NCBI RefSeq assembly: GCF_000172155.1
Contig: NZ_ABIZ01000001.1
Location: forward strand, 5,179,105-5,243,104
From: Verrucomicrobium spinosum DSM 4136 = JCM 18804
Lineage (GTDB): Bacteria; Verrucomicrobiota; Verrucomicrobiia; Verrucomicrobiales; Verrucomicrobiaceae
Reading direction: 5' to 3'
Length of the DNA: 64,000 nucleotides
Position 1 is the stretch's first letter. Every line of letters starts with the position of its first letter. This document shows, piece by piece, positions 9,754 to 51,379 of the stretch. A model generated the notes under the pieces. The model did not search any database and was not told the DNA's origin. It saw only the letters and a program-made list of their open reading frames with translations. The position numbers were made by a program, and so were the translations under genes.

Positions 9754-9864
9754 CTGAGCGACTCCAGCGGCGCTCAGCCGCCTAAACCGCTGCGCGGGAG
9801 ACGCCAGACTGGAAGACAAAAGACTCAAGACTTGAGTTCTGACCATGCGAAGTCGCTGTAGGCG
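9754..9864. repeat. Dispersed 'agactggaagac' repeat, left flank of the intron
   Basis: After a GCTGAGCG/CGCTCAGC hairpin (9754-9779) comes a repeat with 'agactggaagacaaaagac', the palindrome ACTCAAG-a-CTTGAGT and 'gaccatgcgaagtcgct'. Close copies lie near 22880-22930 and 34395-34465. It ends at 'gtaggcg' (9858-9864), where the group II intron interrupts it. Confidence 0.7.
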
Positions 9865-9938
9865 ATGAGGTAGGGGCAGCGCATTGGTTTGCGCCGCCCC
9901 CTCCCAAACCGGACAGGCAGTTTTCCCGCATCCGGCTT
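9865..9938 (-). ncRNA. Group II intron domains V and VI
   Basis: Domain V spans 9938-9906. The outer 8-bp helix AAGCCGGA/TCCGGTTT contains the AGC catalytic-triad position, followed by a bulged inner helix around a GAAAA loop. Domain VI spans 9905-9865 and has an 11-bp stem (GGGGCGGCGCA/TGCGCTGCCCC, one G-U pair), a loop AACCAA, an unpaired CTA with the candidate branch-point adenosine at -7, and a closing GAGG/CCTC helix. Domain V is 33 nt instead of the usual 34, and its lower bulge reads CTG. Confidence 0.78.
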
Positions 9939-10647
9939 TCCCGTTGGTGCACTTTCAGGCTCTGCCCTTGCGGGCCTCTCTGCCCGACCTGACTTCCCGA
10001 CGGGGGGCTCCGCAGGTCCGGTCCCTCCCATCTCGATCTGCGATCTGTGTTCTCAGGCGGACGTTCGCTCCCTTGGTCGGGGCAGGACGCTTGTCCCTGG
10101 CGGTGGCTAGCCCTTTGGGAAATCCGCCAGTGGTTGAGCCCCTCAGGCCGTTGAACGCTCTCACCCACCTGCCGCCCTTGGCTCCACCTGAGTTAACCGG
10201 CTTCATCGCTACTATGACGGCTCTGACTCCTGTCAGGGACCTCGCGGCCTCCTGTCCTGACAGGTTTGCCTTCGCTTCGCTCGCCCTTCGGGCAGCCTTC
10301 GGCTGGCGATCTCCGCTTCGCTCCGGTTCCTGTGTTCACTGCAACTCCCTTGCCCAACATACCACCACCAACCACCCTCACCATCTCCCCCACCGCCTCC
10401 GTGTCTCGCGTCGGGGAAATCACAAGGCTCATGGTCATGGCCCTGTCATAGCTTCGCCACTGACTAGCAGGCTCGCCGATAAATGCTGGCCGAATCGTGT
10501 TCACTTTCGTTGCGGTCTGTTGGATTCTTTCCATTGCTCCCCACCCCGCCTCACGGCGACGCAGTTATTTCAAGTTCTCAGTCAACTACCGGGCCCCGAC
10601 TGGCTGAAGTCTCCCACTCCAGAGGGTTTTGCAGCTTCACAGCGCAC
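9865..10647 (-). mobile_element. ORF-less group II intron, 783 nt, inserted in a dispersed repeat
   Basis: Read on the minus strand, the element starts with GTGCG (10647-10643), the group II 5' consensus. It ends with a domain V-like hairpin, a domain VI hairpin with a bulged A seven nucleotides from the end, and terminal AT. No reverse-transcriptase frame is present: the minus-strand ORFs here are short and lack RT motifs. Both boundaries are confirmed by empty-site sequence. 'aggcg' directly joined to 'tagtccggttgt' occurs at 27386 and 51296, whereas here the intron separates them. A candidate EBS1, TAGTC (10466-10462, intron position ~182), can pair with GACTA at the end of the 5' exon. 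Splicing or mobility would need a maturase encoded elsewhere. Confidence 0.8.
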
Positions 10648-10699
10648 TAGTCCGGTTGTCCCAACCGGCTCAGTCGCCGCACGGACGCACGACCAATCC
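10648..10699. repeat. Right flank of the interrupted dispersed repeat ('tagtccggttgt' family)
   Basis: The hairpin CCGGTTG-tcc-CAACCGG is followed by 'ctcagtcgccgcacggacg' and 'cacgaccaatcc'. Near-identical sequence occurs at 51301-51352 and a shorter version at 27391-27420. In those copies it follows 'aggcg' directly, which shows the uninterrupted state of the intron target. Confidence 0.75.
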
Positions 10700-10708
10700 C
10701 CCAGCCTT

Positions 10709-10848
10709 CCACTCCATCACTCCATCACTCCATCACTCCATCACTCCATCACTCCATCACTCCATCACTCCATCACTCCATCACTCCATCACTCCATCAC
10801 TCCATCACTCCATCACTCCATCACTCCATCACTCCATCACTCCATCAC
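10709..10848. repeat. Octamer tandem array, (CCATCACT) about 17 copies
   Basis: Sixteen perfect CCATCACT units from 10714 and a last partial unit end at 10848. The array runs into the 3' end of the ECF sigma gene: its stop codon (10845-10847, minus strand) lies within the last unit. Long perfect octamer arrays mutate by slippage, so the copy number probably varies between strains and may be hard to assemble. Confidence 0.95.
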
Positions 10849-27283: not shown

Positions 27284-27388
27284 TTTAGCTCCGATTTCAA
27301 GAGCCCTCACCAGCCGTCGCCCTTTCATCGGGGCCGCGGCTTATTATTTCCTAGATCGCAATGGATCACCCCACAACGTCGCCACAGG

Positions 27389-27525
27389 CGTAGTCCGGTT
27401 GTCCCAACTGGCTCAGTCAACGGAGGGACCAAGCGCACAAACACCACCGTCTCCACCGACCACCCACGACGCCTCCGACGGGGACCGTCGGACTACTCCC
27501 GCAGTGTCGCCACGATGTCCCCCAC
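27389..27525. repeat. Uninterrupted copy of the intron target repeat and a second 'tagtccg' hairpin arm
   Basis: 'aggcg' at 27386-27390 runs directly into 'tagtccggttgtcccaac', the sequence split by the group II intron at 9865-10647. Further on, 'gaccgtcggactactcccgc' at about 27482 matches the hairpin arm at 1934. The 242-bp gap holds no gene. Confidence 0.65.
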
Positions 27526-34389: not shown

Positions 34390-34650
34390 CCAACCCGCTG
34401 CGCGGGAGACACAAGACTGGAAGACAAAAGACTCAAGACTTGAGTCCTGACCATGCGAGGTCGCTACGGCCGTAGTCCGCTTGTCCCAGCCCCGCTCACC
34501 GGCCAAGCGTCCCATGAAGCAGACCACACTGGGCACGCCCTCCCCCTGCGCCAGCCCTCATGTCTGGCGCGCCAGCCCTCATGTCTGGCGTCTGGCGTCT
34601 TCATGTCTGGCGTCTGGCGTCTTCATGTCTGGTGTCCCCCCTTCTCCTTC
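34390..34650. repeat. Repeat mosaic: 'agactggaagac' copy, chimeric 'tagtccg' copy and a 'catgtctggcg' array
   Basis: At 34395-34465 lies the best match to the left flank of the intron-bearing repeat. At 34473 'tagtccgcttgtcccagcc' passes into 'ccgctcaccggccaagcgtc', which belongs to the 143-bp family, so two repeats are joined. At about 34558-34645 a 22-bp unit, 'tcttcatgtctggcgtctgg' plus 'cg', occurs two to three times; 'catgtctggcgtct' recurs at 62653. No gene is visible. Confidence 0.7.
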
Positions 34651-51045: not shown

Positions 51046-51379
51046 TTGGAAATATTTTCATCCACATACTATCCCATGGAACAATGTCAACCCCTGCAAC
51101 TCCTTTGGATATAGAATCCGTCAACACGATCCACCCAACCAAGACTCTCACGACACCATCGGGTCAGTAGAGTTTCGTGACCGCGGAACCAATGCACTTA
51201 CCACCGGTTGGCTTGCCGTCCGTTTCCATGTCTCCACACCATCTCTTCGCTGCCTGACCGGATGACACATCCGGGCTATTCCCCAACAACTCAGCAGGCG
51301 TAGTCCGGTTGTTCCAACCGGCTCAGCCGCCGCACGAACGCACGACCGATCCACCGGCAGCCGTCTTCCACCCCCTCGA
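51046..51379. repeat. Gap between the two modules: uninterrupted intron-target repeat
   Basis: 'caggcgtagtccggttgt' begins near 51295 and continues to 'cgcacgaccgatcc' (51352). It matches the right flank of the intron-split repeat without the intron. On the minus strand upstream of the GYF-like gene, TTGACA near 51090 and an 'aaatattt' box near 51052 are shared with the region upstream of module copy 1. No gene is seen. Confidence 0.65.

Follow-up and report, generated by a model that had tools for sequence, protein, structure and literature searches.

This locus raises the question of how an intron with no reverse transcriptase (RT) of its own came to interrupt a repeat of the Verrucomicrobium spinosum genome, and of what it recognizes there. 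The window analyzed is a stretch of 64,000 nucleotides, positions 5179105-5243104 of a single-contig genome of 8,220,857 bases (G000). We think it quite probable that the insertion is an RT-less mobile group II intron from an endonuclease-minus, IIC-like lineage, and that this lineage follows a DNA hairpin together with the five IBS1 bases 3' of it, a combination that would be supplied in G000 by a GTAG-type REP (...CCGGTTGGGACAACCGG-ACTA|C, the bar marking the insertion point). What speaks for this reading at the sequence level is the intact set of ribozyme domains, the exact junctions, covariation between EBS1 and IBS1, a preference for hairpins, the occupancy of REPs by relatives, and the grouping of the intron with an RT-bearing copy in the same genome.

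The intron and its boundaries

The minus-strand stretch at 9865-10647 is, by sequence, a complete ORF-less group II intron of the self-splicing type (Table 1). Its last 76 bases (9865-9940, minus strand) match the Rfam model RF00029 (Intron_gpII) with 52.2 bits (gathering threshold 40; E 2.3e-07), the sole Rfam match in the window at gathering thresholds. A sequence-only reading had already described an ORF-less 783-nt group II intron here, with coordinates, strand, GTGCG start, and AT end that all proved right, and the covariance-model search that it named as a check for domains V and VI thus came out above the cut-off. The ends GTGCG...AT, which agree with the group II pattern GTGYG/AY, lie at junctions defined by empty sites. 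When the two flanks are joined, the best empty site in the window (34491-34392) aligns without gaps over 100 bases across the junction, with 89 identical. The earlier reading had fixed both boundaries from intact targets at 27386 and 51296. Both junctions were correct, homologs have the same ends, and both targets were recovered (27429-27378 and 51358-51296); the better site at 34491-34392 had been overlooked. Across the window and the genomic loci retrieved at that stage, six distinct places (window 34 kb, L004, L006, L007, L008, and L011) span the junction and extend 78 bases or more to its 3' side. A genome search found the window intron as a single copy in G000.

Table 1. Positions of the intron, its parts, and its target copies within the window
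Feature	Position	Strand	Evidence
ORF-less group II intron, complete, 783 nt (by sequence)	9865..10647	-	Rfam RF00029; empty-site junctions; homologs with the same ends
Domain I, GTGCG 5' end	10331..10647	-	76% identity to RT-bearing copy; domain I-III consensus structure
EBS1 TAGTC, closed loop of domain I	10462..10466	-	covariation with IBS1; surrounding domain I pairs
62-nt dispersed element, linker between domains I and II	10265..10330	-	sole match in G000
Domain IV, 234 nt, without RT ORF or detectable ORF remnant	9942..10175	-	domain IV comparisons; RT search
Domain V, catalytic hairpin	9906..9941	-	RF00029; alignment and consensus fold of 17 introns; fold
Domain VI, bulged branch-point A at 9871 (-7)	9865..9905	-	RF00029; alignment and consensus fold; fold
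IBS1 GACTA, last five 5'-exon bases	10648..10652	-	covariation with EBS1
5' part of host REP, stem CCGGTTG-GGA-CAACCGG then ACTA	10648..10671	-	repeat alignment; pattern count; stem search
3' exon: REP foot base C and conserved downstream stretch	9765..9864	-	six junction-crossing places
Best intact empty target copy in window	34392..34491	-	joined-flank match
Empty REP copy	51296..51358	-	joined-flank match, only 5 bases beyond the junction
Empty REP copy	27378..27429	-	joined-flank match

The predicted ribozyme domains appear well kept. The domain V/VI stretch has a predicted folding energy of -46.7 kcal/mol (z -5.3), which none of 200 shuffles equals, and the consensus of 17 introns for these domains has 30 pairs, 10 of them with compensatory changes. 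The window intron makes 26 of the 30 pairs in the alignment, and three of the four missing ones are gaps. For domains I to III the consensus comprises 75 pairs, and 41 of them are changed in a compensatory way in one or more of 14 sequences; the window intron makes 71 of them, and RT-bearing copies of the family make 70 to 74. The bulged A that the earlier reading placed at -7 of domain VI is found at 9871. The lineage norm at the 3' end is CCTACCYCTAT with the A at -8, and the A stands at -7 here because the window intron is one base short. None of the Rfam D1-D4 models reaches threshold for this lineage, and the RT-bearing sister copy described below gives a sub-threshold match to D1D4-1 (28.3 bits).

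A REP as target

The repeat unit interrupted by the intron consists of GAGCC, a stem whose arms covary among copies (GGTTG/CAACC, GATGG/CCATC, GACGG/CCGTC), and then GGACTAC. With up to two mismatches allowed, its pattern occurs at 70 sites in G000, the intron's own included, compared to 9 for a reversed-pattern control. The opposite strand begins with GTAG ahead of the stem. GTAG-type REPs are described as stem-loops of 5-13 bp that leave a GTAG unpaired at one end, and are known in Verrucomicrobia (O. terrae) (PMC3733652). As a high-copy stem-loop with an unpaired GTAG at one end, the target repeat is, on these features, a GTAG-type REP. The intron splits it between A and C (GGACTA|C), four bases past the 7-bp stem. 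As RNA, the REP stem-loop does not stand out from shuffled sequences (z -1.6), of which 17 of 200 fold as well. The stem is followed by ACTA and not by a T-run, and the junction shows no terminator-like site of the intrinsic-terminator kind used by group IIC introns. The same REP is present in the congener G066, and in G065 with an altered foot. The neighboring gene of the locus is also present in both congeners; the sequence adjoining it differs there, and no orthologous empty site was seen.

Pairing between EBS1 and the exon was a specific proposal of the sequence-only reading, which had placed a 5-nt EBS1 at 10466-10462 facing the 5' exon end. This candidate fares well: TAGTC and GACTA form five of five pairs, and the two covary in relatives. 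Once the place of EBS1 was fixed from the window intron, 23 of 34 introns or fragments gave a readable EBS1 and exon end (nine had the region missing or unrecognized, and two had no recognizable start). Over these 23 introns, 92 of 115 positions form Watson-Crick pairs, compared to a mean of 53.9 (sd 4.7, maximum 74) in 20000 shuffles of exons among introns. If G-U pairs are allowed, 15 of the 23 pair in full. Pairing is poor in P_G043 (one of five Watson-Crick) and in P_G032 and TRG202 (two of five each). For the RT-bearing sister in G000, the stem measures 5 bp and EBS1 pairs at three of five positions. Readable EBS1 sequences fit the local repeat, for example TAGAA/TTCTA on contig 146 of G063, TAGTC/GACTA in G000, and TACGA/TCGTA in G042; on contig 165 of G063, TAGAA faces TTTTA, with one G-U pair.

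A hairpin next to the insertion point is the other common feature. Of 31 5' exons, 20 have a perfect stem that measures at least 6 bp and has its end 2-8 nt before the junction; such stems occur at 2.2% of 4000 random positions in the retrieved DNA, under a criterion that was chosen after viewing the sites and with several of the 31 junctions being copies within one genome. For stems of at least 5 bp, the figures are 24 of 31 and 6.0% of 4000 random positions. The 31 are drawn from 34 junctions, of which three without an exact 5' end were skipped, and a perfect stem is wholly absent at four of them (OLG063, OLG036, FLG193, and P_G043). The window junction has its 7-bp stem 4 nt away, as is expected of a group IIC hairpin target. 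Judged from these sites, the lineage follows a DNA hairpin plus IBS1.

Relatives, reverse transcriptases, and loss of the ORF

Matches to the intron were found in 50 of 68 genomes of the family, many of them to the 62-nt element alone, and in 64 of 386 genomes of the order. Twenty stretches were retrieved after each search, those of the order search for matches to the 5' part or middle of the intron; among the latter, L148 and L149 were without a model match, and L133, whose 5' half is unmatched, was left uncounted. A scan of named genomes gave three loci, all in Verrucomicrobia MAGs. Eight complete introns of 573-823 nt are too short for an RT: the window intron (783 nt) and those of G063 (720), G023 (713), G036 (573), G288 (618), G071 (823), G089 (about 638), and G074 (761). 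Eleven relatives are RT-sized, at about 1.87-2.0 kb (5' end exact in eight; RT frame looked at in four), and one is about 1,294 nt long. The ratio of eight to 11 is rough, as short introns survive broken assemblies better, and many further copies are cut by contig ends.

To judge from the junctions read, relatives occupy the REPs of other hosts repeatedly. In G063, nine 5' junctions (contigs 25, 26, 41, 133, 142, 146, 165, 175, and 197) share one repeat, AGCGRCGNNGGCGYCGCTTCTA|C with its close variants, and are placed at its foot; a tenth, that of the ORF-less intron on contig 40, lies outside it. This repeat has 79 pattern sites against none for the control, and at seven of the 79 the last base is G, as insertion would leave it, in place of the C of empty sites. 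All six junctions read in G029 (contigs 5, 12, 15 twice, 31, and 41) are in another repeat or its close variants, with 21 pattern sites against none for the control and four carrying the G mark. The terminal G alone is no proof of insertion, since one REP of G000 (2219887-2219911) ends in CTAG with no intron match past that base. Most introns of G063 and G029 are cut short by a contig end, and the REP-dwelling copies there may be either RT-bearing or ORF-less. Four of five junctions read in G049 share a third hairpin type, and both junctions read in G042 lie at a fourth. The sequence-only reading had taken the intergenic repeat family to serve as landing sites. That idea gains its support mainly from relatives, at the nine G063 and six G029 sites; in G000 the intron is present once, and therefore the repeat family is not repeatedly used there.

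As the earlier reading had held, no RT is encoded inside the window intron: none of the six TIGR04416 matches in G000 falls within it, and a search with a relative's RT, minus its first 100 residues, gave no significant match there (best E 6.1, on the opposite strand). The genome search which that reading proposed, for other copies and for an RT-bearing relative, returned one diverged RT-bearing sister at 1516679-1518566. It is 1,888 nt long, 76-88% identical over the matching parts, and sits outside the window intron's REP. Its RT frame is broken, with RVT_1 and GIIM in different frames and a stop within one matched stretch. Three intact RT frames with equal scores are also present in G000 (L070, L071, and L072; G000:C1 1039394, 6553812, and 7464593), and these belong to another intron type, with 39% identity over 313 residues to the lineage RT. 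The two copies of this type that were scanned match Rfam D1D4-4, and the window intron does not. A domain V match adjoins two of the three RTs; the third was without one in the genome search. The frame of the third overlaps a Y1_Tnp gene at L070:2768-3892. A further RT-like frame of 465 aa is open at L075 (G000:C1 4656856) and scores 62 bits against a group II RT model. An intact RT of the same lineage, such as the genome of a trans-mobilized intron would be expected to carry, was not found in G000, where the sole same-lineage RT is the broken one. The earlier statement that the intron is moved by a maturase elsewhere is thus not supported as a present-day fact.

The RTs of relatives match RVT_1 and GIIM, with no HNH match reported. 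Against solved structures they score 228 bits with the GsI-IIC RT and 220 with the group II RT of 7uim, compared to 155 for 6me0 and 149 for LtrA; we take the first two to be IIC. Plasmid RT relatives reach at most 49.5% identity among the 15 matches listed, none of which carries a class label. With insertion at a hairpin added to the lack of HNH and the solved-structure scores, the lineage appears to be endonuclease-minus and IIC-like, a class assigned by resemblance. The RT frames of two relatives (L076:1629-3296 and L077:1606-3273) are open far upstream, into domain I of the ribozyme, and plasmid RTs at 44% identity align to them from residue 15 on. L080 and L087 are decayed relatives whose RT regions have G+C-rich inserts with motifs that, by eye, are like those of the 62-nt element.

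Loss of the ORF would most simply have happened several times in the lineage, since ORF-less and RT-sized introns are interspersed in a tree built from the cores of 20 introns (supports given as SH-aLRT/UFBoot). The window intron and the broken RT copy from its own genome form one group (95.5/97), as do ORF-less G071 and RT-sized G163 (99.3/100) and ORF-less G074 and RT-sized G193 (99.9/100). The ORF-less introns of G063, G023, and G036 fall together (76.7/81). A single ORF-less clade was rejected, given this mixing. Global alignment (z 14.9) shows homology between the short domain IVs of G063 and G023, which points to one ORF-less form in two genera. Because ORF-less forms recur in the lineage and this homology spans genera, such forms appear to persist and spread. 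A shared ORF deletion was also considered and rejected for the window intron: in local alignment, nothing significant links its domain IV with four RT-bearing copies (p 0.19 to 0.99) or with three other ORF-less introns (p 0.44 to 0.49). Two of these show a faint global resemblance to it (z 3.8 and 4.2), which no shuffle out of 300 equaled.

Arrival of the intron and competing explanations

The linker between domains I and II carries a 62-nt element that is matched in 48 of 68 family genomes. Within the genus, the copy inside the window intron is the sole match (one in G000; none in G065, G066, or G067, the last being 76% complete). Because the element is dispersed in other genera and elsewhere unmatched in this one, its distribution suggests horizontal arrival, with the element picked up by the intron in another genus before insertion into a genus-native REP. 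In G043, part of a similar element occupies the corresponding position in a decayed relative. The element resembles the Rickettsia palindromic elements in habit. It has short inverted repeats, and copies were noted in L049, L051-L060 (except L054), and L062-L069. It folds no better than shuffles (z -0.1), and is therefore at most a putative palindrome. At 18 loci read, the longest frame over the element spans 105-770 codons, in G+C-rich DNA where frames are predicted only; in L051 and L053, from two genera, the element lies at the same place of a similar frame.

Under the preferred explanation, the intron would have lost its ORF long ago and would have arrived by horizontal transfer carrying the element from another genus. 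Splicing and reverse transcription would then have depended on a relative's RT acting in trans, with the now-broken sister as its simplest source and a driver since lost as the other candidate, and the intron would have reverse-spliced into one REP. Endonuclease-minus group II introns are described as inserting into DNA by reverse splicing and taking their primer from the replication fork (PMC4424553). Trans-mobilization of the window intron is likely on this account. Against the preferred explanation stand the unformed domain V/VI pairs, the REP stem-loop that is unexceptional as RNA, the four junctions without a perfect stem, the three introns with poor EBS1 pairing, and the short stem and partial pairing of the RT-bearing sister. 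Counting against it as well are the single copy in G000, which represents one mobility event, the broken same-lineage RT, and the base missing near the 3' end. These last three points speak for an immobile relic, in which an RT-bearing intron would have used its own RT to enter the REP and would have lost the ORF afterward at that site. We regard such a relic as unlikely: no ORF remnant was found in domain IV, the pairs of domains I to III are kept as in RT-bearing copies, EBS1 and IBS1 match perfectly at the present site, and ORF-less forms recur, including the one common to G063 and G023. A native origin seems about equally doubtful. Here the lineage would belong to the genus, the element would have entered the intron there, and its other copies would be lost or too diverged. 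The congener G067 does contain the 3' end of a related intron (79-81%), a sister copy resides in the same genome, the G+C content of the intron (0.618) is close to that of the window (0.614), and the family search scored just 13 of 24 element candidates in G000. However, a search of G000 alone scored all 26 of its candidates with the intron as sole match, the three congeners have no element match, and G065 and G066 gave no intron match in either the family or the order search.

The driver could instead be found among the RTs of the other intron type, acting in the present day. Their three frames are intact and score equally, and RTs of relaxed specificity are reported from T. elongatus (PMC2882425). 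The 39% identity between the RT types and the D1D4-4 match, seen in both scanned copies and absent from the window intron, make this improbable, more so than a relic or a native origin. Least credible of all, and highly improbable, is a REP-plus-intron unit that moves whole with the intron as its passenger. A Y1_Tnp gene is encoded in G000, and we presume it to be a RAYT, which speaks for such a unit. Transposases of this family have been linked to REPs and are thought to spread them (PMC3733652). Yet there is one intron for about 70 REP pattern sites, relatives follow hairpins of many sequences with matching EBS1, and the G000 search found no second REP-plus-intron block with identical flanks.

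Several aspects of the trans-mobilized, hairpin-following intron favored here have precedents. Group IIC introns insert at terminators and attC sites (PMC4424553, PMC8919778), and the present lineage resembles them in its RT without a recognized endonuclease domain, its insertion just 3' of a DNA hairpin, its short EBS1/IBS1, and an RT closest to IIC RTs among solved structures. It differs in that the hairpin here is a REP followed by ACTA, not a T-run, and in an IBS1 that varies by host with EBS1 following. TeI3 of Thermosynechococcus elongatus likewise combines RNA-only introns with RT-bearing relatives in one genome; its 17 introns share one common deletion with ORF remnants (PMC2882425), whereas here no remnant was found, ORF loss is scattered, and the same-lineage RT is broken. 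C.te.I1 of Clostridium tetani has been called the sole known bacterial ORF-less intron without a related IEP in its genome (PMC4424553). No intact same-lineage IEP was found in G000 either, but C.te.I1 lies in a surface-layer gene, while the window intron lies in a REP outside listed genes and a broken lineage RT is still present. REP insertion has been reported in Pseudomonas putida KT2440 for two of nine group II intron copies (PMC1525189). In contrast to that minority, host-specific repeats are occupied here at several sites and in several genera, with EBS1 matching where readable. The main text of the GTAG-REP paper (PMC3733652) has no word beginning with "intron" by term search. The literature searched, which most subscription journals fall outside, yielded no intron lineage whose EBS1 follows the host REP. 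Against published work, insertion of IIC introns at hairpins, trans-mobilized ORF-less introns, and occasional REP insertion are known; what appears new is host-specific REP occupation at several sites in several genera, with EBS1 matching where readable.

We give an even chance to a broader reading, in which this Verrucomicrobiota group II lineage specializes in REPs. The hairpin would provide general recognition, EBS1 would be rewritten for the REP foot of each new host, and RT-less forms would arise repeatedly, persist, and cross genera. REPs would then offer a retroelement and its RNA-only parasites a landing platform that is renewable and differs from host to host. An intron whose target is another repeat family links REPs and retroelements, which are usually studied apart. 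It also makes testable how a retroelement changes target on a change of host, because EBS1 can be exchanged independently of the REP foot.

Two other repeat arrangements were seen in the window. At about 1900-2010, two units ending in GGACTAC stand face to face, one of them a REP pattern match. Between the intron's REP and the neighboring gene, positions 10710-10848 form a perfect 8-bp tandem array (unit CACTCCAT, 17.4 copies).
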